The notes under the pieces are model-generated. The model did not search any database and was not told where the DNA came from. It saw only the letters and a program-made list of their open reading frames with translations. The position numbers and the translations under genes were made by a program. This document shows positions 27,577 to 57,121 of a stretch of 64,000 nucleotides of DNA, in pieces. The stretch's first letter is position 1. Every line of letters begins with the position of its first letter. Source of the stretch: Mailhella sp. (GTDB taxonomy: Bacteria > Desulfobacterota > Desulfovibrionia > Desulfovibrionales > Desulfovibrionaceae); contig JAFQTU010000075.1 in assembly GCA_017408905.1 (NCBI GenBank), positions 1 to 64,000 of the forward strand. The letters are read 5' to 3'.

Positions 27577-27652
27577 GCCGAGGTAGCTCAGTTGGTAGAG
27601 CAGGGGACTGAAAATCCCCGTGTGGGCAGTTCGATTCTGTCCCTCGGCACCA
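27577..27652 (+). tRNA. tRNA-Phe (GAA anticodon), island integration site
   Basis: A 76-base tRNA with acceptor GCCGAGG/CCTCGGC and encoded ACCA. The anticodon stem GGGGA/TCCCC holds loop CTGAAAA, giving GAA for phenylalanine. The last 17 bases form part of the left attachment repeat of the island, so integration leaves the gene whole. Confidence 0.97.
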
Positions 27653-43804: not shown

Positions 43805-44755
43805 ATGACACAAACAACACATGATGCCGGAGAGCTTTTCAGTGGAAAGCCTTCTGGCACAACGATTCTCGGCTACAGTGAGCCTTCCATTTACACGCCG
43901 AAAATTGACCCGCTGTACGCGTTCCACGAGTCCAGCCGCGATGTGATCGTCTGGTTTCTGATGGAGAAGGCTGACCCGTTGTACATCTACGGACCTTCTG
44001 GTTGTGGCAAATCGAGCCAGATTCGGCAAATCGCTGCTCGCCTGAACTATCCCGTTTTCGAAGCGACAGGACATGACCGTTTGGAGTTTCCTGATCTTGT
44101 TGGTCATCTGTCAGTCAAAGATGGCAACATGGAATTTCAGGATGGACCTCTGACGGTGGCGATGAAGCAGGGAGGAATCTTCCTGTTCAACGAAGCGGAT
44201 CTCTGTTCACCATCGACGCTTGCGGGGCTGAACACCATCCTCGATGGTTCTCCTCTTTGCATCGCAGAAAACGGTGGTGAACTCGTCGAGCCGAATCCTA
44301 TGTTTCGTTTCATCGTGACTGCGAACTCCAACGGCGCGAGTGATGACACTGGCCTTTATCAAGGTGTGATGAGGCAGAACATCGCTTTCATGGATCGCTT
44401 CATCGTAGTGGAAGTCGGCTATCCGAAGACGGAAGTAGAGGTGAATCTGCTCCAGCAGAAGTTCCCGCAGATTCCGACAGATATTCTCGGCAAGATGGTG
44501 GATTTCGCCAACGACGTTCGGAAGAACTTCATGGGCAACAGCACTGCACATGACGCACTCGAAGTCACGCTGTCCACGAGAACTCTCATTCGCTGGGCTG
44601 AGCTTACGATGGCATTTCAGCCTCTTTCTAAGCAGGGAATTTCTCCTGTCATGTACGCTTTGGATCGCTCTCTTGGATTTCGAGCTTCTCAAACAAGCAG
44701 AGTGGCTTTGGCTGAAATGGCTAAACGGATTTTCAATGACATTTCAATGAACTAG
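43805..44755 (+). CDS. CobS/MoxR-like AAA+ ATPase
   Basis: A 316-residue AAA+ ATPase of the MoxR clade, closest in pattern to cobaltochelatase subunit CobS. Walker A is IYGPSGCGKSSQIRQIAARL near residue 60, Walker B GGIFLFNEADLCSP near 122, then sensor 1 FRFIVTANSNG and the CobS-like MRQNIAFMDRFIVVEVGYP. A lid domain follows. There are no cobalamin genes nearby, so a cobalt-insertion role is unlikely. It forms an operon with a DUF3150 protein (8 bases on) and a CobT-like vWA protein, an ATPase-plus-vWA pairing that usually remodels a protein target. Confidence 0.9.
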   Translation: MTQTTHDAGELFSGKPSGTTILGYSEPSIYTPKIDPLYAFHESSRDVIVWFLMEKADPLYIYGPSGCGKSSQIRQIAARLNYPVFEATGHDRLEFPDLVGHLSVKDGNMEFQDGPLTVAMKQGGIFLFNEADLCSPSTLAGLNTILDGSPLCIAENGGELVEPNPMFRFIVTANSNGASDDTGLYQGVMRQNIAFMDRFIVVEVGYPKTEVEVNLLQQKFPQIPTDILGKMVDFANDVRKNFMGNSTAHDALEVTLSTRTLIRWAELTMAFQPLSKQGISPVMYALDRSLGFRASQTSRVALAEMAKRIFNDISMN

Positions 44756-44763
44756 GAGTTGTT

Positions 44764-45765
44764 ATGGACACTATTTTGAACACGCCTATTCAGGTTTTGG
44801 ACAAAATTTTGGCTTTGAATTTGGACATCAACATCTGGTCTGCACGTGCCAAACTTACTGCTGAAGACTTTGGAGAAACGGAACTTCCGCCTGACGAACT
44901 CGCGTCTCTCGGCTCTAAGAAAATCTGCGATCCCGAAAAGCTCAAGGTTTTCAACAAGCTTAAGAAACGTGCTTTTACTCTGCTTGACCGTAATGGTGTT
45001 CGCTTCTTGTCTGGATGGGCTATTCCTGAAGACAAGGCCGGAGACATCATCGCAGAACTCTGCCAAATTCGGGATGACTTTTATGCTGAAAAAGCACAAT
45101 TCATTGCCTCCTATGATGTCGTTATAGAGGATTGGATAAATGCTCATCCTACATGGTCGAGCATTATCGCGGGTTCGACAGTAAGCCGAGAACACGTTGA
45201 AAAACGCTTCGACTTTTGTTGGCAGCTTTACCGCGTAATGCCGGTGATGGGCATAGATTCCGTACAGGCTATGGAAGAGTCTGGTCTTCACGATGAAGTG
45301 GAAAACCTCGGTGGAACTCTGTTCTACGAGATAACCAAAGATGCTGAAGACATCTGGAAAAAAGTCTTTGTGGGCAAAACGGAGGTTACGCACAAGGCTC
45401 TTTCTCCGCTCAAGACCATGAGGGAAAAGCTGAATGGCCTTTCTTTTGTGGAACCTCACGTCGCTCCGGTTGTGGAAATTCTCGATGCCACCTTGTCCCG
45501 TGTTCCGAAAAGAGGTCTGATTTCGGGAGCAAATCTGTTCATGCTTCAGGGAATCGTGAGCCTGCTGAGGGATGGCAAAGCATTGCTGGCTCAGGCAGAA
45601 GCGATGATGACTTCGCCAGCACCGGAAAACGTGCTCGCTTCCTTCTTTGGGGAACATGAACAGGAAGAACCCGTTCTGGAGCTGGAAGAAGAAAGTGAAG
45701 AAGTAGAACCTGCTTTCGTCCCTGCATTTGCTTCAGGTCGAATTGATTCACTTGGTCTCTGGTAA
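44764..45765 (+). CDS. DUF3150-family protein
   Basis: A 333-residue protein matching the DUF3150 pattern found in phages and plasmids beside CobS-like ATPases: VLDKILALNLDINIWSARAK, LKKRAFTLLDRNGVRFLSGW and AIPEDKAGDIIAELCQIRDD. It is helical throughout, has no catalytic motif, and ends in an acidic tail (EEPVLELEEESEEVEPAF). AGGAG precedes the ATG. Its function is unknown; the position between the ATPase and the vWA protein suggests an adaptor of that complex. A strong terminator-like hairpin follows its stop codon. Confidence 0.85.
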   Translation: MDTILNTPIQVLDKILALNLDINIWSARAKLTAEDFGETELPPDELASLGSKKICDPEKLKVFNKLKKRAFTLLDRNGVRFLSGWAIPEDKAGDIIAELCQIRDDFYAEKAQFIASYDVVIEDWINAHPTWSSIIAGSTVSREHVEKRFDFCWQLYRVMPVMGIDSVQAMEESGLHDEVENLGGTLFYEITKDAEDIWKKVFVGKTEVTHKALSPLKTMREKLNGLSFVEPHVAPVVEILDATLSRVPKRGLISGANLFMLQGIVSLLRDGKALLAQAEAMMTSPAPENVLASFFGEHEQEEPVLELEEESEEVEPAFVPAFASGRIDSLGLW

Positions 45766-45771
45766 AATGCG

Positions 45772-45806
45772 AAAAGCCCAAGAGCGGAGCAAACTCTTGG
45801 GCTTTT
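45772..45806 (+). terminator. Hairpin between the DUF3150 and vWA genes
   Basis: AAAAGCCCAAGAG and CTCTTGGGCTTTT form a perfect 13-bp stem with a 9-base loop and end in T. The next gene starts 124 bases on; that gap holds no clear gene, only a weak TTG-initiated frame after AAGGAGGAG. Confidence 0.82.
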
Positions 45807-45930
45807 CTCTTGCTGAGGGGATTCAAAGGAGGAGTTTTGTTAAGTTCAATTTACTGTTTTTACAGGGAATGTCACGTTTCAAACTCTTTCTTCACGTTCT
45901 TTTATCTTTCAAACTTTAACGAGGTTTTCA

Positions 45931-47595
45931 ATGCTGAAACCTGAAATGCGATTGAAAGCTCTTCCTCTGGTAGCTTCCATGCTGGGGGACAAGCTCGGAG
46001 TGAAGGTCGTTTTCGGAGAGCAAGATACGGCCTGTACAGATGGACAAACTGTTTTTCTTCCTTCTTTGCCGATGGAAGAGGATGAACAGCTCTACAGGCT
46101 CGTTTCTGGTTACATCGATCACGAAGCCGCTCATATCCGCCACACTGATTTTGATGCGATGAAGGCTGCCAAGCTCAGTCCTGTTGCTCACCATATCTTT
46201 AATGTCATTGAGGATTGGCGGGTAGAGCATGAGCTGGTGAAAAGGTATCCTGGATGTCGTGAGCATTTTGACTGGCTCAACCGACATCTGTACCTGCCTA
46301 AATCGAAACGAAAAAAGAAGAAAGCTGGAGGAGAAAAACCTCCGGCTTTTTTCATTCTTGACTACATCCTCAATACGGTCAATCAGGCAGATGTTCCTGA
46401 ACTCGAAGAAGCAAGAAGGTCTGCTGGTCGTAGCATCGACAAAAATTGGCCGAAGTTGCGAGTGAAGATTGATGCGACTTTAGAGCAGATTCCAATGCGC
46501 TGTCTTTCGACCCGTGACAGCATCGAAGTGGCCTTAGAACTCATGACCATACTGGAAGCTGAAGCTCAAAACCAGACTACTAAACAAGCTCAGAATCAGT
46601 CGGTTTCAAGCTCTGAGGCTACTCAAGATGGAGTCGAAAATCAGTCCTCCTCGGAGTCGTCAAATGGATTATCGGAAGGCGAAAACAACCCGTCACAGCG
46701 AGGTGAAAATGCTGATCTTACCGCCGATTCCTCATTGGTCGATCTTTTATCTGCTGCTGAAGATTCTCTCCCGCAAAGCTCAGAAATAAAACTGAAGCAA
46801 GCCATTTTCGGCAAGAATCCCAATAGGAAGAAAGATGGATTTTTTATGGCTGCTGAGCATGAACTCGTTGCAGATAGGCTTTCTCCTGAAGTAGTTAGCG
46901 AAGCTCATTCCTCATCGCGTGCATTGAAAACGAGGTTTCAAGGACTTTTGCAGACTAGATTTCTACGGCGTGTTACTCCAGCGCGTCATGGAAAAACATC
47001 TGGAAGGCTTCTTCATCGGATTGTCACGAAGAATCCCAGACTGTTTCGAAAGGCAGATGAAGCTCTTGGGATTGATACCGCCATACACATCTTGTTGGAT
47101 CGCTCAGGTTCGATGGATAATCAGATTCAACTCGCGTCGCAGGCTTGCTTTTCGGTGGCTTCCAGCTTGTACGGAATCAAAGGCGTGAACGTCGCAGTAA
47201 CAGCTTTTCCTTCTGATTTAGGTACGGGTGATTTGAGGTCAGTTGCTCCTATTTTTCGGCATGGTGAACGTATTACGGATAAGTTTGCGGTTGGAGCTGA
47301 AGGAAGAACTCCACTTTCTGAAGCTCTTTGGTGGACGACAAAGGAACTTTTCAAACAAAAAGAACAGAGGAAAATTATCCTAATCATTTCAGATGGTCTT
47401 CCAGATGATCCTCCAATTGCTCTGAAAACGCTTTCGGTAATTCGTGACTTGGGAATTGAAATGGCAGGAATAGCCATTGATTCTTGGCAGCTTGCGAACT
47501 TCATCAACGCTCAAGAGAACATCACAGACATACGAGAACTTGCTCCTGCCATGTTCCGTATTCTTCAGCAACTTCTTCTTAAAAAGGAGAAATAA
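45931..47595 (+). CDS. CobT-like von Willebrand A domain protein
   Basis: A 554-residue protein. The N-terminal third has a zinc-protease-like GYIDHEAAHIRHTDF near residue 70 and FNVIEDWRVEHEL, as in CobT-type proteins. A Ser/Glu/Asn-rich linker (about 210-270) follows. The C-terminal vWA domain (about 380-554) has a complete MIDAS: DRSGSMDNQ, a threonine in GAEGRTPLSEAL and ISDGLPDDPP. With the CobS-like ATPase this is a MoxR/vWA machine. CGAGG lies six bases before the ATG. A GTG-initiated membrane peptide follows almost immediately. Confidence 0.9.
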   Translation: MLKPEMRLKALPLVASMLGDKLGVKVVFGEQDTACTDGQTVFLPSLPMEEDEQLYRLVSGYIDHEAAHIRHTDFDAMKAAKLSPVAHHIFNVIEDWRVEHELVKRYPGCREHFDWLNRHLYLPKSKRKKKKAGGEKPPAFFILDYILNTVNQADVPELEEARRSAGRSIDKNWPKLRVKIDATLEQIPMRCLSTRDSIEVALELMTILEAEAQNQTTKQAQNQSVSSSEATQDGVENQSSSESSNGLSEGENNPSQRGENADLTADSSLVDLLSAAEDSLPQSSEIKLKQAIFGKNPNRKKDGFFMAAEHELVADRLSPEVVSEAHSSSRALKTRFQGLLQTRFLRRVTPARHGKTSGRLLHRIVTKNPRLFRKADEALGIDTAIHILLDRSGSMDNQIQLASQACFSVASSLYGIKGVNVAVTAFPSDLGTGDLRSVAPIFRHGERITDKFAVGAEGRTPLSEALWWTTKELFKQKEQRKIILIISDGLPDDPPIALKTLSVIRDLGIEMAGIAIDSWQLANFINAQENITDIRELAPAMFRILQQLLLKKEK

Positions 47596-48548: not shown

Positions 48549-49868
48549 ATGAGTTGCATAAAAGCAGACTCGTTCGGCTATTCCCCGCAGGACTTCGCAA
48601 CGTTCAAGCGTTACGCGTGGCGCTACCTGCTGATGTTCTCGTTCCTGTACTGCGCGCTGTACTGCTGCCGCTTGAACCTTTCCAACGCCAGCGCCGTCAT
48701 GATGGCCGAACTTGGCTGGACCAAGGCCGACATAGGCATCCTTACCGGTACGCTGTTCTGGACCTACGGCATAGGGCAGGTGGTGAACGGCCGCCTTTCG
48801 GAAATCGTCGGGACGGCTCGTTTCGTGGTCTTTGCCGTACTGCTTTCGGCGGTGGCCAATATCCTTTTCAGCTTCCAGACGTCCATTTTCGCCATGGCCG
48901 TGCTCTGGGGCATCAACGGCTTCTTCCAGTCCATGGCGTGGACGCCCGGCATCGCCACGCTCACCAAGTGGTGGCCCGGAAACTCGCGCGGCTTCGCCAC
49001 CGGCTTTGCCAACACCTTTTCGGGTTTCGGGCAGGTGGCGGCCACGCTGTCCGTGGCGCTGGCCTTTGCCATTCTGCCGGAAATGGGCTGGCGTGCGGCT
49101 TTCATCGTGCCTGCGGCCATACCGCTCGCCATGCTCGTCATCTACATGGTCTTTGCCAAGCCTACGCCCAGCGCGGTCGGCCTGCACGAATACACGGAAA
49201 ACACGGAAGAGATGGCGAAGAACGAAACGGCCATGCAGGAAATACTGCGCACCAAGGGCAAGTTCTACCCCTATAAGTACGTGCTTTCCGACAGGCTTTT
49301 CAACCTGTGGATGATAGTGGCCTTCTCCATAGGCCTTGCCCGCTACGGCCTTGTGACGTGGGTACCGCTGTATTTCATCGACCAGTTCGGTATCAAAATT
49401 ACCGACGGCCTGCTCGCCTCTCTCGCGCTTCCCGTGGGTATGGGCATAGGTACGCTGGTAGTGCCGTGGCTCAGCGACAAGCTGTACCTGAACAACCGCC
49501 TCAGGGCCTGCACCCACAATGCGGCTATCGGTGCCGTGGCCGTGTACGTGTTCTTCCTGCTCGACCCCACTGTGATGTGGCAGCTCGTGCTCATCGAGAT
49601 ACTGCTCTTCGTGGCGGGCTTCTGCATCTATGCCATCAACGGCACGGCATGGGCCTTTGCCACCGACATAGGCGGCCGCTTCTTCTCCGGCACGGCGGCG
49701 GGCTGCCTGAACTTCTGCGCCTACATGGGCGCGGCCGTGCAGTCCCTGCTTTACGGCTTCCTGCTCGATGCGGGCGGCTGGAACATCGTGTTCATCTCTA
49801 TTGCCGCTTTCTGCGGCCTCATCGCCATACTCGGAACCCTCAGCGCGGCCCATAGGACCGCCCATTGA
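48549..49868 (+). CDS. Organophosphate:phosphate antiporter family transporter (GlpT-like)
   Basis: A 439-residue major-facilitator protein with 12 membrane segments. YLLMFSFLYCALYCCRLNLS, ELGWTKADIGILTGTLFWTY and GQVVNGRLSEIVGTARFVVF fit the GlpT/UhpT branch, including the arginine in TM1 and the G-x-x-x-G-R loop after TM2; NGFFQSMAWTPGIATLTKWW is also typical. GlpT exchanges glycerol-3-phosphate for phosphate across the inner membrane. Being first in a locus with glycerol-phosphate cytidylyltransferase-like and glycerophosphotransferase-like genes, it probably supplies glycerol-3-phosphate. The substrate is inferred from family and context. The next gene starts 15 bases on. Confidence 0.85.
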   Translation: MSCIKADSFGYSPQDFATFKRYAWRYLLMFSFLYCALYCCRLNLSNASAVMMAELGWTKADIGILTGTLFWTYGIGQVVNGRLSEIVGTARFVVFAVLLSAVANILFSFQTSIFAMAVLWGINGFFQSMAWTPGIATLTKWWPGNSRGFATGFANTFSGFGQVAATLSVALAFAILPEMGWRAAFIVPAAIPLAMLVIYMVFAKPTPSAVGLHEYTENTEEMAKNETAMQEILRTKGKFYPYKYVLSDRLFNLWMIVAFSIGLARYGLVTWVPLYFIDQFGIKITDGLLASLALPVGMGIGTLVVPWLSDKLYLNNRLRACTHNAAIGAVAVYVFFLLDPTVMWQLVLIEILLFVAGFCIYAINGTAWAFATDIGGRFFSGTAAGCLNFCAYMGAAVQSLLYGFLLDAGGWNIVFISIAAFCGLIAILGTLSAAHRTAH

Positions 49869-49883
49869 TATTAGGAGTCATCC

Positions 49884-50351
49884 ATGCGCATCTGTGTCGA
49901 TATGTCTGCCACGCTCATCCATCACGGTCACGTTCGTCTTCTGAAAAAAGCCAAGGAACTCGGCACGGTGGTCGTAGCCCTCACCACGGACGAAGAAGTG
50001 CTGAACAAAAAGGGATACAAGCCCGAACTCAGCTTTGAAGAACGCAAGGAGATTCTCGAGAGCATTCGCTATGTGGACGAGGTCGTCCCTTCGCCGTGGC
50101 TCATCGACGACGCCTTCCTTGTGAAGCACAACATCGACAAGCTTGTGCACGGCAATGACAATTCCAACCGCATTCCCGAAGAAAAGCTGGTCATCTTCCC
50201 GCGTACCGAGGGCGTGAGCAGTTCCGACATGCGCAGCCGCGTGCTGGACAGCCTCATTTCCATCAACCTGCGCAAGGACGCGGAACAGGGCTCCGACCGT
50301 GTGGCCCGCGCCCTGTTCGAGACCATCAAGAACGAATTCAGGCTGGATTAG
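49884..50351 (+). CDS. TagD-like nucleotidyltransferase (glycerol-3-phosphate cytidylyltransferase candidate)
   Basis: A 155-residue HxGH-type cytidylyltransferase. The CTP-binding HHGH lies at residues 13-16 after VDMSATLI, the middle has LSFEERKEILESIRYVDEVV, and RTEGVSSSDMRSR near residue 110 is the second CTP motif. Relatives activate glycerol-3-phosphate (TagD/TarD) or phosphoethanolamine/phosphocholine as CDP derivatives. The next gene encodes a CDP-glycerol-type glycerophosphotransferase, so CDP-glycerol is the most economical product. AGGAG lies upstream. It ends one base before the ATG of the next gene, indicating tight coupling. Confidence 0.85.
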   Translation: MRICVDMSATLIHHGHVRLLKKAKELGTVVVALTTDEEVLNKKGYKPELSFEERKEILESIRYVDEVVPSPWLIDDAFLVKHNIDKLVHGNDNSNRIPEEKLVIFPRTEGVSSSDMRSRVLDSLISINLRKDAEQGSDRVARALFETIKNEFRLD

Positions 50352-50352
50352 C

Positions 50353-51645
50353 ATGAAATTCCGCGCCCTTCGCTATGCGGCCCTTCTGTGCCTGCTGGTC
50401 ACGGCATGCCCCAGCCCGGCCTACGCCTACCTTGACCCTGGCACGGGAAGTATGCTCCTTTCCGTGCTCATCGGCCTGCTGTCTTCGGCGTATTTTCTGA
50501 TGCGCAAGCTCCCTGCGCTGTTCCGAGCCGTGCTGTTCAAGGCCACGGGCAAGGGCAAACTTCTGGAGCGCAAGCATATCGCCATCTACGGCGAAACGGC
50601 CAACTACTGGGGCACGTTCCGGCCCCTGCTGGAAGAATTCGGCCGCCGTGGCGAAGCTGTGGAATATCTCACCTCCTCCGAGAACGACCCCTGCTTCAAG
50701 GCCGACCTGCCGGACTGCATCACCTGCCGCTACATCGGCACGGGCAACACGGCCTACACCACGCTGAACTTCCTTGAGGCCGACGCCCTCGTGCTCACCA
50801 CGCCAGGCATCGACGTTTTGCAGATTCGCCGCTCCAAGGGCGTGAAGAAGTACATCCACGTCGTCCACTCCCTGAGCGACGTCCACTCCTACAAGCTCTT
50901 CGCCTTCGACTATTACGACGCCGTGCTGTGCAGCGGCCAGTATCAGGCCGATTCCCTGCGCCTGCTCGAGGCCCAGCGCGGCACGCAGGCCAAGGAGCTT
51001 CCGCTGGTCGGCTGCCCGTACATGGACGCCCTTGCCGCCCGCCGCGAACGCGAGAAAGACAGCGTGAAGCCCGAAGGGAACTGCGTGCTCGTGGCCCCTT
51101 CGTGGGGCAAGAACGGCATGCTCACGCGCTATGGGGCCGCCGTGCCGCGCTTCCTTGCCGAAGCCGGATACAAGGTCATCCTGCGCCCGCATCCGCAGAG
51201 CTTCATTTCCGAAAAGCCGCTCATGGAACAGCTCCAGCGCGAACTGGCGGGCTTCGACAACATTGAGTGGGATCGCAACCCCGACGGCTTCGCCTCCCTG
51301 AGCCGCGCCACGGTCATGGTGTCGGACTTCTCGGGCGTGGTCTTCGACTTCGCCTTTGTCTTCCTGCGCCCGGTGGTCACGCTTGCCTACGAACTGGACA
51401 AGCGCGGCTTCGACGCCTTCAGCCTGCCGCATCCCTCGTGGGAAAGCCAGGTGGTGGAACAGCTCGGCCACAGGCTCGACCCGGCCGAACTGGAACAGCT
51501 CCCCGGCATCATTGAGAAACTCGCCTCGGACCAGAGCTTCCCCGAGCGCATCCTGCATATCCGCGAAAACAATGTGGCGAACTTCGGCAAGGCCGCCGTG
51601 CCCGTGGTGGATGCCATCCTGAACATTGCCGCCAGCGGGGAATAA
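50353..51645 (+). CDS. CDP-glycerol glycerophosphotransferase family protein (TagB/TagF-like)
   Basis: A 430-residue protein. The start at 50353 abuts the cytidylyltransferase stop codon. An N-terminal hydrophobic segment with a signal-like stretch (ALLCLLVTACPSPAYA) and a second helix (LLSVLIGLLSSAYFLMR) anchors it. The GT-B catalytic part contains GCPYMDALAAR, VLVAPSWGKNGML, LRPHPQSF and VSDFSGVVFDFAFVF, the TagB/TagF pattern including donor-site residues. Family members transfer glycerol phosphate from CDP-glycerol in teichoic-acid synthesis, which is surprising in a Gram-negative. The YidC-fusion gene follows after 3 bases. Confidence 0.88.
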   Translation: MKFRALRYAALLCLLVTACPSPAYAYLDPGTGSMLLSVLIGLLSSAYFLMRKLPALFRAVLFKATGKGKLLERKHIAIYGETANYWGTFRPLLEEFGRRGEAVEYLTSSENDPCFKADLPDCITCRYIGTGNTAYTTLNFLEADALVLTTPGIDVLQIRRSKGVKKYIHVVHSLSDVHSYKLFAFDYYDAVLCSGQYQADSLRLLEAQRGTQAKELPLVGCPYMDALAARREREKDSVKPEGNCVLVAPSWGKNGMLTRYGAAVPRFLAEAGYKVILRPHPQSFISEKPLMEQLQRELAGFDNIEWDRNPDGFASLSRATVMVSDFSGVVFDFAFVFLRPVVTLAYELDKRGFDAFSLPHPSWESQVVEQLGHRLDPAELEQLPGIIEKLASDQSFPERILHIRENNVANFGKAAVPVVDAILNIAASGE

Positions 51646-51648
51646 GCC

Positions 51649-52345
51649 ATGCTGGAACTCCTCTACCTTGTCTGCATCGCTCCGCTTGAATTCTGTATGC
51701 AGATCATTCTGCGCTGGGGCTTTTATACTACGGCTTCCTATGGCCTTGCCCTCATCCTGATGAGCCTTGCCGTGAATACGGTCATCCTGCCCATCTACAA
51801 CAAGGTGGAAGGCTGGCAGGAAGAAGAACGTGCGCTCAAAGCCCGCATGGCTCCCATGGAAACCATGATACGCGAGGTCTTCAAGGGGCAGGAACGCTTC
51901 GCCATGATATCCACGCTGTACCGCCAGCACGGCTACAGCCAGTTCATGACGCTTCGCGCCAGCATAGGCGTGCTTTTGCAGATACCCTTCTTCTTTGCCG
52001 CGTATCATCTGCTCTCCAACATGGAGGCCCTGCACGGCGTTTCCTTTGGCCCTATCCGCGACCTTGGTGCGCCGGACGAGCTTTTCGTCATCGGCGGGTT
52101 CAGCATCAACGTCCTGCCCATCCTGATGACGGTGGTGAACCTCGTCTCGGCCTTCTTCTACACGCACGACCTTTCCCGCCGCGATAAGATACAGCTCTAC
52201 GGCATGGCTGCGCTGTTCCTCGTGCTCCTGTACAACTCCCCGGCGGCCCTCACCTTCTACTGGACGCTGAACAACGTCTATTCCCTTGGCAAGAATATCG
52301 TCGAGAAGGACTGGATGAAGCGGCAGGGGTGGAAGGAACTCGTGG
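51649..52345 (+). repeat. Near-identical 5' segment of the tandem YidC-fusion genes
   Basis: The first about 697 bases closely match 54302-54998 at the DNA level. At protein level only three differences are seen in 233 residues (Ile/Val at 19, Thr/Gly in the MEtMI/MEgMI motif, Ile/Val in DKI/DKV). Beyond this point the two genes diverge sharply. Confidence 0.88.
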
Positions 52346-54288
52346 AGAAATGCCGCCTCGCCGGAAGCAGGGCGGTGAGCCTTGCAGAATGTTCCTTCGT
52401 CTCCGTGCTGACACGCGTGGGACATCTGTTTCCTTTCAGGCTTATTCCGTGGAGTACGGTTGCTCAGAAATGGAACGCCTTCCTTCCCGCGTCGCAGAAG
52501 AACGCTCTCGCCGGGCTTTTTCTGCCCTCGGCGGCCCTGCTGGCACTGCTTGTCATCGTGTACTGCCCCTTTGCTGTTTTCAGCTCCGATCCCGTACTGT
52601 TCGATACGGAAGCAGTGAAATTTGCCTCAGCTCAGATCGGCCTTTTTTTTGCTCTCCTCCTTATTCTGGCTGTACTCGGCGTATTGGCTGGCCCCCTGCG
52701 CTGGATATTGGGCACGGTCATTGGACTTTTGGCCTGTGTTGCTCTGGTGTTCTGCTTCGTGCTCGCGCCTGACTTCGGCGCCATTGATGCCCTTATTTTG
52801 CAGAATCCCGCGCCCCTCTATAAAAAATCGAATCTTATCATTGATATAGCGGTCGTTTTTAGCTTGCTCGCGGCCTTTGTTGCCGTAATACGTTTTCGAA
52901 AGGCCGCTTCTCTTTCCACGGTTATTTATGCCGCGCTGACCATAGTAGCCGTCATGTCGGCAGTACATTATCAGTCTGCGAAAAGCACACTTGCGGCTCT
53001 TGGCAAGGATAAACCCGTGAGTCAGCCCGCTGAAAAAACTCCGCCGCAGTATATGAAGGATTTCTATACCTTCAGCAAAAACGGCAAGAATGTTGTCGTG
53101 GTCATGCTCGATATGTTCACCGGCGGCAATATGGCCCAGATACTGGAAATATATCCTGAGCTGAAGACCCAGCTCGACGGCTTCGTGTGGTATGAAGATA
53201 CTGTGACGGCAGGTACTTCCACACTTTTCGGCAAACCGGGTATCTTCAGCGGAGAAGACTGCCATCCTGTGAACCTGAACAAGGATGAAAGCCGTACGCT
53301 GGAAGAAAAAATAGCGAACTCTCAGGGAAGGTTTCTGCGCAAAATTCAGGAAAAGGGATTCAGAATCTCCGTTCTTGATGGGGAGTCCTTTTATCCTGAC
53401 CGTTTCCTCCCCATGCTTGCTCAGGGAAAATCGGTCAATTTCGTGCGCCGCAGTACGCTCTGGCCAGAAGCCCCTCAATACTGGGCCAGAAAAAACAATT
53501 TTATTTTCGAGGAAAAAAAGTCGCACGACAAGTTCCTTGGTGCTATCGGGCTTTTCAATATCGCGCCCCTTTCCGTCAAGAAAAAAATCTACAGGAATGG
53601 GCGCTGGCTGAATGCCGTCTCTGTGGGCGGACATTCGCTTCACCACTCGCTGACGCACCTTGCGGCACTTGATGCACTGCCCGAAGGCTCACAGGTTTCT
53701 GATACTCAGGAAAACGCCTACATCTATATGGTGAATATGCTTACCCATGTTCCGTGGGGTCTGGACGAAAAGGGTATGCCTTCCAGCGACAGCGGAACCA
53801 GCGCAAGCCGCGATCCTGCCAGCGGGCTTTCCCGCCATCATATCCGCACGGAAGCGTTCACCCTCAAGTCACTGGTTCGCTGGTTCGAGTGGATGAAGGC
53901 ACAGGGGGTTTACGACAATACGCAGATAATCCTCGTGTCCGACCATGGCCGCGGTGATAGTGGTCAGGTATTCAAGGTCTGGGGACGAATCCCGTCTGTC
54001 CATCTCCATGGTCTGCTTCTGGTCAAGGAGGCTGGAGAGCGCGGCTCTGTGCGCATAGACAGCACCAGCCAGATGGCGAACTGGGACGTTCCCACTATTA
54101 TCTTCAATGCTCTGGCAGAAAAAAATGAAAACATCCAGAAACCTTGGATGAACAAGAATAGAGAACGCTACCATGTTCGTGGCGACATCAACCGCTCTCG
54201 CCACTCGAAAAATAAGTTCTCTTTCCACGAGGTATATAAAATCCAAGGCCCGCTTTACGAAAAGAAAAGCTGGGTAAAGATTCAATAG
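51649..54288 (+). CDS. YidC/Oxa1-like domain fused to an LTA-synthase/sulfatase-type domain (copy 1)
   Basis: An 879-residue three-part protein. Residues 1-235 follow YidC/Oxa1: a first helix with GLALILMSLAVNTVILPIYN, a coiled hairpin (KARMAPMETMIREVFKGQER), then HGYSQFMTLRASIGVLLQIP and the last helices. The groove arginine of YidC is asparagine here. Residues 275-450 are about seven further membrane helices. Residues 480-860 are an alkaline-phosphatase-superfamily domain: NVVVVMLDMFTGG (metal aspartate), TVTAGTSTLFGKPGIFSGED (candidate threonine nucleophile) and VSDHGRGDSGQVF near 764 (metal ligands). LTA synthase and MdoB-type enzymes use this fold to transfer phosphoglycerol outside the inner membrane. 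It follows the TagB/F-like gene by 3 bases. Confidence 0.82.
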   Translation: MLELLYLVCIAPLEFCMQIILRWGFYTTASYGLALILMSLAVNTVILPIYNKVEGWQEEERALKARMAPMETMIREVFKGQERFAMISTLYRQHGYSQFMTLRASIGVLLQIPFFFAAYHLLSNMEALHGVSFGPIRDLGAPDELFVIGGFSINVLPILMTVVNLVSAFFYTHDLSRRDKIQLYGMAALFLVLLYNSPAALTFYWTLNNVYSLGKNIVEKDWMKRQGWKELVEKCRLAGSRAVSLAECSFVSVLTRVGHLFPFRLIPWSTVAQKWNAFLPASQKNALAGLFLPSAALLALLVIVYCPFAVFSSDPVLFDTEAVKFASAQIGLFFALLLILAVLGVLAGPLRWILGTVIGLLACVALVFCFVLAPDFGAIDALILQNPAPLYKKSNLIIDIAVVFSLLAAFVAVIRFRKAASLSTVIYAALTIVAVMSAVHYQSAKSTLAALGKDKPVSQPAEKTPPQYMKDFYTFSKNGKNVVVVMLDMFTGGNMAQILEIYPELKTQLDGFVWYEDTVTAGTSTLFGKPGIFSGEDCHPVNLNKDESRTLEEKIANSQGRFLRKIQEKGFRISVLDGESFYPDRFLPMLAQGKSVNFVRRSTLWPEAPQYWARKNNFIFEEKKSHDKFLGAIGLFNIAPLSVKKKIYRNGRWLNAVSVGGHSLHHSLTHLAALDALPEGSQVSDTQENAYIYMVNMLTHVPWGLDEKGMPSSDSGTSASRDPASGLSRHHIRTEAFTLKSLVRWFEWMKAQGVYDNTQIILVSDHGRGDSGQVFKVWGRIPSVHLHGLLLVKEAGERGSVRIDSTSQMANWDVPTIIFNALAEKNENIQKPWMNKNRERYHVRGDINRSRHSKNKFSFHEVYKIQGPLYEKKSWVKIQ

Positions 54289-54301
54289 AAAGGGCTGGCC
54301 C

Positions 54302-54998
54302 ATGCTGGAACTCCTCTACCTTGTCTGCATCGCCCCGCTTGAATTCTGTATGCAGGTCATTCTGCGCTGGGGCTTTTACACTACGGCGTCCTATGGCCTT
54401 GCCCTCATCCTGATGAGCCTTGCCGTGAACACGGTCATCCTGCCCATCTACAACAAGGTGGAAGGCTGGCAGGAAGAGGAACGCGCCCTGAAGGCCCGCA
54501 TGGCCCCCATGGAAGGCATGATACGCGAGGTGTTCAAGGGGCAGGAGCGCTTCGCCATGATATCCACGCTGTACCGCCAGCACGGCTACAGCCAGTTCAT
54601 GACCCTTCGCGCCAGCATCGGCGTGCTTTTGCAGATACCCTTCTTCTTTGCCGCGTATCACCTGCTCTCCAACATGGAGGCCCTGCACGGCGTTTCCTTC
54701 GGCCCTATCCGCGACCTTGGCGCGCCGGATGAGCTCTTTGTCATCGGCGGATTCAGCATCAATGTCCTGCCCATCCTGATGACGGTGGTGAACCTCGTCT
54801 CGGCCTTCTTCTATACGCATGACCTTTCGCGCCGCGACAAGGTACAGCTCTACGGCATGGCCGCGCTGTTCCTCGTCCTCCTGTACAACTCCCCGGCGGC
54901 CCTCACCTTCTACTGGACGCTGAACAACGTCTATTCCCTCGGCAAGAATATCGTCGAGAAGGACTGGATGAAGCGGCAGGGGTGGAAGGATGTGGTAC
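54302..54998 (+). repeat. Partner of the repeat at 51649-52345
   Basis: Direct tandem partner, 2653 bases downstream. Conservation restricted to the YidC-like part argues for recent gene conversion or selection on that domain. Confidence 0.88.
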
Positions 54999-57121
54999 AG
55001 AAGGCGCAAGCCATGTCTGTCCGACTGAATGGCCTTGAACATCTGGGCGTGGTCGCGTTCCTTGCATCGCTGGGATTCGCCGCCGCCAAAGTTCTGGGCC
55101 TCATCACGGAGCAGGGACGATTCCTGGAGCACAAGGCTGTTCTGATGCCCTTGCTGAAAAGCTCCGTTTCTCTGGTCATCCTTCTTTTCCTGCTGCTTCT
55201 CCTTGCCTGGGTTCTGCAGAAAAGGTTCTCCTGCCTTCTGTGGTTCCTTTTTGCGCTGGCAAGCGCCGCCGTCTGGGAGCATGGCATCCATTACCAGCAC
55301 GCCATGGGGCTGACGGCTGCATTCCTGCTGACGGTACTTTTCTACCGTACCGGCCGCTTTTCCAAGCTCACGCAGAGACTTGCGGAACGCTTCCGCACGG
55401 ATGAGCTCAACATGCTGGACTCGCGCGCCCTGCTCCTTATGGCGCTTCTTGTCTTCGCCTATACTCCGGCAAGGCTCATGCTGGCCGACCAGTCCTTTGT
55501 CAGCGTCCATACCTTTGCCTTCCTGACCGTCGGGATACTGCTGACCGTTACCGTTCCGCTTCTGGTTTTCAATGCCTGCCGCAGCGATATCAGGGTCATC
55601 TTTTCCTTCCTTGTCTGCTCGCTGTCCTTTGTCTTTGTCGTCTATACCTTCTTCGTGGTACGAGATTACGGTATTCTTGACGCCTATGCCTTTGAACGCG
55701 CTTCGATAATAAAACTCCGCTGGTACAAGTATGTGGATATGGCCGTGTGCCTTCCCATTCTTGGTATAGTGGCATTCCTTTTTTATAAAAACCGTGTGCT
55801 TCTTGGGCGACTGCTGGCTGTGGCCCTGACCATGACCATAGCGCTGGGCGGCATTTCCTATGCCCATCTGCTTTTTGCAGAGCCCGAAACCGTTGCCGTA
55901 ACGCCAGCCGGGCCGCAGAAGCATCTGCGCCTGAGCCGAACCTCACCCAACGTGCTCGTCGTCATGCTGGATGCGTTCACCGGCGACCACATCGGCAATA
56001 TCATGAAGGAACACCCGCATCTTCTTGCGAGTTTCGAAGGCTTTACCTGGTTCCCCGACACCATTTCCGCCGCCGAATCCACCCATATGAGCCTTCCCGC
56101 CATCATAGCTGGCGAAGGTATGGCCTGCTACAGCCTCACCAAGGATGACGGGCGCAGTCTTGAAGAGAAGATAGGGAAAGGTGTGGACGACTTCATGTCG
56201 AAGCTGCGCGCCCGGGGATTTTCGACCAAGATAGCCGCCTCTAACAACATCGACTACATTGCGGGCAAGAGCTACGTCGAGCATGCCATATGCAAGGACT
56301 ATGCGGCGGCCTATCATGGAAAGACCTCCGGCCGGGAAGAGTACATCCCTGGCATCTTTGCCGCCTCGTACGGCCTGTTCGAAGCCGCGCCCTGGTCGCT
56401 CCGCAAGAACATCTATCGCAAGGGGCGCTGGTTCTTCTCCGGCAACTCCGCCCTCGACCGCTGTGTGGAGCATTACTCCGTTCTGGAACGACTCGCCGAC
56501 ATGACCAGCATCGACAGCGGGGGAGGATCCTACAACCTGTTCATCAACGAACTGGCCCACCTGCCGTGGAGCATATCGAAGGAAACGCTCCGCCCCATGG
56601 ATGGCGACCCCTATCCCGAGACCGTGGAAATCATGGAAATGCGCGGCGGGCTCATCCCCGAGCACTATTATTCGGAGATGGCGGCCCTCAAGATGATGGG
56701 CGATTTCTTCGATTTCCTGAAGCGTGAGAACGTCTATGACAATACCCTGATCGTCATGGTTTCGGACCACTGCTCGGGCGACAGCCAGCCGCTTTCCCAG
56801 ACCTTTGGCAATCCTTCTCCGAAGCGTGCCCTGATTACCTATTCCGGCCGCCCCAACGCCCTTTACATGGTCAAGGGATTTCAGGAACGCGGAAGCCTGC
56901 GCATTGACGGCACGCCTATGGCAACGAGCGATACCCGGGCAATCGTGGAAGCCGCAGTTAACGGGGAAGCCTTCGTTCCCCCTTCTTCTGACCGGGTGCG
57001 CTACCACGCCCTTGGCGGTTGGCACAGAGGACGCCACCCCAAAAACGTCTATAAGCTGGATACCCTCTGGAAAATCTCGGGCCCGAAGCTGAATAGGGAA
57101 AGCTGGGTAAAGGTGCAATAA
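54302..57121 (+). CDS. YidC/Oxa1-like domain fused to an LTA-synthase/sulfatase-type domain (copy 2)
   Basis: A 939-residue paralogue of the preceding protein. Residues 1-233 are almost identical YidC-like sequence; the following membrane region is longer (about nine helices) and unrelated in detail. The extracytoplasmic domain begins near 550 with NVLVVMLDAFTGDHIG, the candidate nucleophile lies in SAAESTHMSLPAIIAGEG, and VMVSDHCSGDSQ near 820 supplies metal ligands. It also ends in HRGRHPKN and a closing SWVKVQ that match copy 1 (HRSRHSKN, SWVKIQ), so both ends are conserved. The 13-base gap and shared direction make it the last gene of the locus. Different membrane and catalytic parts suggest different substrates or steps. 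Confidence 0.82.
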   Translation: MLELLYLVCIAPLEFCMQVILRWGFYTTASYGLALILMSLAVNTVILPIYNKVEGWQEEERALKARMAPMEGMIREVFKGQERFAMISTLYRQHGYSQFMTLRASIGVLLQIPFFFAAYHLLSNMEALHGVSFGPIRDLGAPDELFVIGGFSINVLPILMTVVNLVSAFFYTHDLSRRDKVQLYGMAALFLVLLYNSPAALTFYWTLNNVYSLGKNIVEKDWMKRQGWKDVVQKAQAMSVRLNGLEHLGVVAFLASLGFAAAKVLGLITEQGRFLEHKAVLMPLLKSSVSLVILLFLLLLLAWVLQKRFSCLLWFLFALASAAVWEHGIHYQHAMGLTAAFLLTVLFYRTGRFSKLTQRLAERFRTDELNMLDSRALLLMALLVFAYTPARLMLADQSFVSVHTFAFLTVGILLTVTVPLLVFNACRSDIRVIFSFLVCSLSFVFVVYTFFVVRDYGILDAYAFERASIIKLRWYKYVDMAVCLPILGIVAFLFYKNRVLLGRLLAVALTMTIALGGISYAHLLFAEPETVAVTPAGPQKHLRLSRTSPNVLVVMLDAFTGDHIGNIMKEHPHLLASFEGFTWFPDTISAAESTHMSLPAIIAGEGMACYSLTKDDGRSLEEKIGKGVDDFMSKLRARGFSTKIAASNNIDYIAGKSYVEHAICKDYAAAYHGKTSGREEYIPGIFAASYGLFEAAPWSLRKNIYRKGRWFFSGNSALDRCVEHYSVLERLADMTSIDSGGGSYNLFINELAHLPWSISKETLRPMDGDPYPETVEIMEMRGGLIPEHYYSEMAALKMMGDFFDFLKRENVYDNTLIVMVSDHCSGDSQPLSQTFGNPSPKRALITYSGRPNALYMVKGFQERGSLRIDGTPMATSDTRAIVEAAVNGEAFVPPSSDRVRYHALGGWHRGRHPKNVYKLDTLWKISGPKLNRESWVKVQ

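Follow-up and report, generated by a model that had tools for sequence, protein, structure and literature searches.

In a 64,000-nucleotide stretch of Mailhella sp. DNA (the window), we found two tandem, intact open reading frames on the + strand, YL1 and YL2, each encoding a YidC/Oxa1-like domain of five transmembrane (TM) helices followed by an LtaS-like half. They form the end of a presumed operon of five genes (48549-57121), in which an importer, a cytidylyltransferase and a TagF-like transferase (CGT) precede them with gaps of 1-15 nt, the start of CGT being taken as the ATG at 50353. Together with CGT, the fusion points to an undescribed route by which a gut-type sulfate-reducing bacterium decorates its cell surface with small charged groups; these are probably aminoethylphosphonate or phosphocholine. 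We rate it an even chance that the operon serves the relay described below, by which a small head group, phosphate or phosphonate, would be attached to a glycan (or lipid) in the periplasm or on the surface.

Domain organization of YL1 and YL2

YL1 (51649-54288, +; 879 aa) and YL2 (54302-57121, +; 939 aa) were defined by open reading frame, Pfam, NCBIfam and alignment, and the coordinates that an earlier, sequence-only reading of this DNA had given for the tandem fusions proved exact. Residues 31-218 of YL1 and YL2 match Pfam 60KD_IMP (PF02096) with E-values of 1.7e-21 and 4.2e-21 (77.4 and 76 bits), both above the curated cut-off of 35 bits, and TIGR03592 (YidC C-terminal domain) gives 76.8 and 77.2 bits, under its cut-off of 84.3. 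Searched against solved structures, a profile of the N-terminal domain found YidC (3wo6, E 4e-15), confirming the YidC/Oxa1 relationship proposed in that reading. The LTA-synthase/sulfatase-type domain that it had named was likewise recovered: a profile of the C-terminal half returned LtaS (2w5q) as the top match (E 7.5e-6), and Pfam Sulfatase scored 34 bits in YL2, over the cut-off of 25, and 19.7 bits in YL1, slightly under it.

In YL1, the YidC/Oxa1-like domain (51649-52323, +; Pfam match 51739-52302, supported by the structure-profile match) carries Asn (N43) instead of the groove Lys/Arg. It is followed by five TM helices of the LtaS-like half (52504-52965, +; hydropathy) and by an alkaline-phosphatase-superfamily domain (53056-54285, +; Sulfatase profile, LtaS structure match and alignment). 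In YL2, the YidC/Oxa1-like domain (54302-54982, +) is followed by about nine TM helices (55049-55855, +; hydropathy), i.e. the common five and four extra ones, the fourth of which lies below the hydropathy threshold used, and then by the alkaline-phosphatase-superfamily domain (55934-57118, +). The seven to nine additional helices claimed earlier thus hold for YL2 but not for YL1. LtaS itself has five TM helices and an extracytoplasmic catalytic domain; given that the number of helices after the YidC part is odd, the catalytic domains of YL1 and YL2 are predicted to be extracytoplasmic as well.

Alignment of 23 sequences showed that T525 (53221-53223), H700 and H766 of YL1 are invariant and that D488 (53110-53112) and D765 (D765-H766, 53941-53946) are nearly so; the YL2 positions are D557, T594, H753 and D822-H823. 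Judged by position, T525 of YL1 and T594 of YL2 are the likely nucleophiles, and D488/D557 together with D765-H766/D822-H823 are the likely metal ligands. The invariant threonine, located about 35 residues further on, is a better candidate than the Thr of LDMFTGG/LDAFTGD, which the earlier reading had listed among its metal and nucleophile motifs.

The two genes are 95% identical over their first 691 nt (51649-52339 and 54302-54992) and then diverge abruptly near codon 230, the C-terminal halves being only ~32% identical. Across these 230 codons, 29 differences are synonymous and 4 non-synonymous. The tandem genes of L083 (1-4775), a locus from a different genus, behave alike, with 89% identity over 683 nt and an identical boundary. 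Within a locus it is the enzyme part that diversifies, the YidC part staying alike. Such domain-limited homogenization is most simply explained by gene conversion, and it would fit a partner common to both proteins together with acceptors or steps that differ between them.

A TagF-like transferase is the constant partner of the fusion

CGT (50353-51645, +), encoded immediately before YL1, is a TagF-like transferase of PF04464 (Glyphos_transf 32.4 bits, cut-off 22.1), for which the ATG at 50353 is the best start. Its N-terminal membrane anchor (50353-50502, +), as seen by hydropathy and alignment, is made of a signal-like helix, A-x-A, YLDPGTGS and a second TM helix. A profile of CGT against solved structures found TarL and TagF, and H169, H172, RPHP, SD.S and D332 are invariant in the alignment. 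No description of the YLDPGTGS motif was found in the literature searched; at the DNA level, the YLDPGTG(S/N) pattern (50428-50456 in the window) occurs in two of 247 phylum-sample genomes, both of them fusion carriers.

CGT adjoins the fusion gene, on either side, in all 23 loci whose contig runs on (the window included). Strong CGT matches were found in 23 of 297 genomes of the order, a sample nearly the same as the 294 genomes surveyed for the YidC-like domain, and these 23 comprise 22 genomes with the fusion and one without (G272). One genome (G008) carries two fusions and two CGTs, and in another (G296) the fusion and CGT are on separate contigs, the fusion at a contig end and CGT not. 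The CGT of G272 (L116:9260-13899) has no YLDPGTG anchor, and its neighbours, a phosphonate cluster, encode PEP mutase-cytidylyltransferase, phosphonopyruvate decarboxylase and Fe-ADH; decoration is perhaps completed in the cytosol of this bacterium.

Comparing distances among 14 loci, we found that those of the YidC part and CGT are correlated with r 0.94, and with a partial correlation of 0.91 given the C-terminal half, whereas for the C-terminal half and CGT the partial value, given the YidC part, is 0.20; these values are descriptive, as the 14 loci are related and alignment of the C-terminal half is more difficult. Little of this contrast is seen among the eight loci nearest the window (partials 0.63 and 0.53).

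A proposed relay across the membrane

The relay that we propose builds on observations, namely the conserved fusion, its constant pairing with CGT, a groove that has lost its charge and front ends that are exchanged between loci. The importer would take up an organophosphate or phosphonate, in this genome most likely 2-aminoethylphosphonate, which the cytidylyltransferase would turn into a CMP/CDP ester. Anchored CGT would then load the head group, on the cytosolic face, onto a lipid carrier in the membrane. Docked to CGT, the YidC-like domain would offer the charged donor lipid a hydrophilic route to the outer leaflet, and the LtaS-like domain would take the head group onto its Thr (T525/T594), assisted by metal, and then pass it to a periplasmic acceptor. 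We infer the lipid carrier, the flipping, the covalent Thr intermediate, the acceptor and the exact head group; the lipid-donor chemistry of the last step is borrowed from the LtaS and EptA families, which work with a lipid donor and a Thr intermediate. Known TagF-type enzymes act on lipid-linked glycans and not directly on a donor lipid, so the carrier step assigned to CGT is a guess. To our knowledge, ordinary LtaS and EptA use bulk phospholipids as donors and need no YidC partner, which counts against the relay.

YidC, Oxa1 and Get1 scramble phospholipids in vitro, and in simulations scrambling runs along the same groove as insertion (PMC10491306). Considering this activity and the co-divergence of the YidC part with CGT, lipid handling by the YidC-like part appears to be the best mechanistic reading. 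We suggest tentatively, rating the chance at somewhat below even, that the YidC/Oxa1 fold has been turned from an insertase into a built-in flippase or scramblase for a lipid-linked head-group donor that feeds the fused enzyme. If true, the fusion would be a self-contained machine by which a head group activated with CMP/CDP in the cytosol becomes attached outside the membrane. The system would be a natural test of whether the in vitro lipid scrambling of the Oxa1 family has a dedicated physiological use.

The main rival holds that the YidC-like domain is a docking scaffold only, which grips the YLDPGTG anchor of CGT, so that CGT and the LtaS-like domain share a membrane-bound acceptor and no lipid is moved. 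Co-divergence with CGT and homogenization in tandem suit a protein contact as well as they suit a lipid path, and the fusion accompanies every anchored CGT but not the copy that lacks the anchor, in G272. However, the polar and aromatic residues Q111, W205, N208 and N209, common to genuine YidC, are invariant in the fused domains, and this conservation seems to go beyond what a scaffold needs. We consider a mere scaffold possible but rather unlikely.

Exchangeable front ends and the identity of the head group

The presumed first gene of the operon (48549-49868, +; MFS_1 E 1.4e-46), 15 nt ahead of the next, encodes an MFS importer of the organophosphate:phosphate antiporter type (GlpT/PgtP/AepP kind). 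Its closest solved relative is GlpT (1pw4, E 1.6e-28), and both arginines with which GlpT binds phosphate are kept in the alignment. The second gene (49884-50351, +; CTP_transf_like E 1.5e-14) encodes a cytidylyltransferase of the TagD/Pcyt2/PepM-CyTase superfamily. Its best solved relatives are Pcyt2 and TagD, it shares 31-33% identity with the CyTase domain of PepM fusions, and it is about equally close to TagD, Pcyt2 and other members; it is predicted to use CTP for activating an organophosphate or a phosphonate. Scans for promoters and terminators gave results close to chance.

Upstream, the window carries a low-GC (about 0.37-0.48) integrative element (27577-47945). Its integrase (27779) lies next to tRNA-Phe (27577-27652), and the 3' end of the tRNA gene is repeated as 21 bp at 27636 and 47925. 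The cargo includes a sigma-54 activator, ERF, DUF927 and a CobT/VWA-MoxR-DUF3150 set; at 43805-47595 inside the element, an AAA_5/CbbQ-type ATPase, a DUF3150 protein and a CobT-like VWA protein stand in a row. The fusion operon begins about 600 bp past the right end of the element and is thus outside it.

Other fusion loci carry different genes in front. In four of them (L004, L005, L037 and L084) a cytidylyltransferase is followed by an ABC transporter of the aminoethylphosphonate type; that of L084 reaches 353 of 393 and 565 of 593 bits for the 2-aminoethylphosphonate models PhnS2/PhnU2, just short of the cut-off, and the other three are 46-57% identical to it. Ten loci (L036, L075-L080, L086, L087 and L117) have a LicC-like cytidylyltransferase fused to a LicA-like choline kinase, with LicC (1jyk) as the best solved relative. 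In L045 a LicC-like gene occurs with a BCCT transporter. L081, whose CGT is 63% identical to that of the window, encodes a sodium/solute symporter and a LicCA-like protein, the latter divergent (24%). Near the fusion of L085 (11155-14668) lie genes for PEP mutase-cytidylyltransferase (PepM-CyTase), phosphonopyruvate decarboxylase (Ppd) and a phosphonate-type Fe-alcohol dehydrogenase, which suggests hydroxyethylphosphonate as the head group there. Phosphonate-related genes are thus found in L004, L005, L037, L084 and L085, and in the window itself only the GlpT/AepP-type MFS gene. What these exchangeable front ends have in common is a head group, phosphate or phosphonate, that is activated with CMP/CDP.

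For the window, our belief in aminoethylphosphonate is about evenly balanced with our doubt. PepM was not found in its genome, so a phosphonate would need to be imported. Glycerol-3-phosphate is an unlikely head group, though one to be reckoned with, and phosphoethanolamine/phosphocholine we likewise hold to be improbable. That the window's cytidylyltransferase stands as near to TagD and Pcyt2 as to other members leaves some room for glycerol-3-phosphate or phosphoethanolamine. The sequence-only reading had proposed a phosphoglycerol transferase, and in a full version of this idea the importer, the TagD-type and the TagF-type enzymes would handle glycerol-3-phosphate, which YL1 and YL2 would transfer or polymerize as glycerol-phosphate in the manner of LtaS; such a version concerns the head group, and its mechanism overlaps with the other readings. 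The family names of all four kinds of gene and GlpT as the closest solved importer speak for it. However, the relevant models lie far under their cut-offs: TIGR01518 gives 78.6 bits (cut-off 165.4) for the cytidylyltransferase, glpT 135.6 of 632 for the importer, PgtP also staying under its equivalog cut-off, and the NCBIfam LtaS equivalog 13.1 of 970 for the fusion. The aminoethylphosphonate permease AepP is a GlpT-related MFS protein too (PMC8316502), the cluster of close relatives holds the aminoethylphosphonate-type ABC transporter, and the relative with the 63%-identical CGT has the divergent choline-kinase/cytidylyltransferase-like gene instead. As the front-end genes of relatives lead to aminoethylphosphonate, phosphocholine and another phosphonate, we disfavour phosphoglycerol and regard this version as unlikely.

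The YidC-like domain departs from genuine YidC

The genome encodes an ordinary YidC on another contig (a 575-codon frame, 224 bits), and in a tree with genuine YidCs the fused domains, 21 in number, group as a single clade (support 1.0). The groove position in TM1 is Lys or Arg in 22 of 22 genuine YidCs of the family and in none of the 21 fused domains, which have Asn (13), Ala (5), Ser, Thr or Phe (1 each). R103, T161 and N164 are newly conserved in the fused domains, as is N154, which lies within a segment that has no YidC counterpart. A duplicate of the housekeeping insertase was ruled out by the separate clade, the lost groove charge and the normal YidC elsewhere in the genome. Alternatively, the YidC-like domain could have no role in the chemistry and act as an insertase reserved for the LtaS-like half or for CGT, folding either into the membrane. 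Its fold kinship with YidC agrees with such a function, but the absence of the groove Lys/Arg from all 21 fused domains, the presence of a normal YidC and the fact that ordinary LtaS and EptA manage without a fused insertase make it very unlikely.

The fusion is an old family

Full-length orthologues with 67-68% identity are present in two other assemblies, both labelled Mailhella, and a contig scan that finds close relatives only returned Mailhella alone. Homologues at 24-54% identity have an unchanged architecture, including those of the single-contig genomes G232 and G236. Searching for the domain pair across genomes, as the sequence-only reading had suggested, we found the YidC-like domain profile in 22 of 294 genomes of the order, always within a long fused frame, the shortest of which (654) is truncated by the contig end; no unfused copy of the domain was found among the 294. 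A genome of another family in the phylum sample (G564) also carries the fusion, and plasmid searches for fusion copies gave ordinary YidC matches only. The profile surveys cover this phylum, mostly as draft genomes with genes called by simple codon scoring. The YidC-LtaS fusion is thus an old family. The fragmented state of the assembly (80 contigs) would allow for an assembly, frameshift or annotation artefact that merged two genes; the same fusion in more than 20 genomes at 24-68% identity, G232 and G236 among them, refutes it. G042 has a variant fusion (L044:8240-10699) whose C-terminal half comes from another member of the superfamily and aligns poorly; it, too, is paired with an anchored CGT.

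Comparison with known systems

The component families are known. In the literature searched, the coverage of which is limited, we found no description of a YidC-LtaS fusion, of a constant CGT partner or of front-end switching. Phosphonate and phosphocholine decoration of surfaces is widespread among bacteria. For phosphonates, the activation step has been described, with LicD-like enzymes in the gene neighbourhoods, and the tailoring steps are still called "enigmatic" (PMC6697681); the main text of that paper does not mention YidC or glycerophosphotransferase. CGT and the fusion are a defined two-gene candidate for the steps after activation.

Like members of the YidC/Oxa1 family, the fusion has the five-helix core with a cytosolic hairpin (PF02096); unlike them, its domains form a separate clade, have lost the groove Arg/Lys and are joined to an enzyme beside a normal YidC. 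With LtaS, the closest solved relative of its C-terminal half, and the related OpgB and EptA/MCR, it shares five TM helices, an extracytoplasmic alkaline-phosphatase-superfamily domain, metal ligands and a Thr nucleophile, but it scores far under the LtaS cut-off and adds the N-terminal YidC-like domain, a TagF-like partner and a pathway to a cytidylyl-activated donor. CGT belongs to PF04464 and keeps the conserved His, RPHP and SD.S of the TagF/TarL CDP-polyol phosphotransferases, from which it differs by the signal/TM hairpin with YLDPGTGS/N and by its constant pairing with the YidC-LtaS fusion. In the LicCA/LicD and PntC pathways, too, a CDP-choline or CMP-phosphonate head group decorates surface glycans (PMC6697681). 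Among the scanned neighbours of the fusion loci there is no LicD; in contrast to those pathways, the last steps here are assigned to CGT and the YL proteins, and we propose that transfer is finished in the periplasm.
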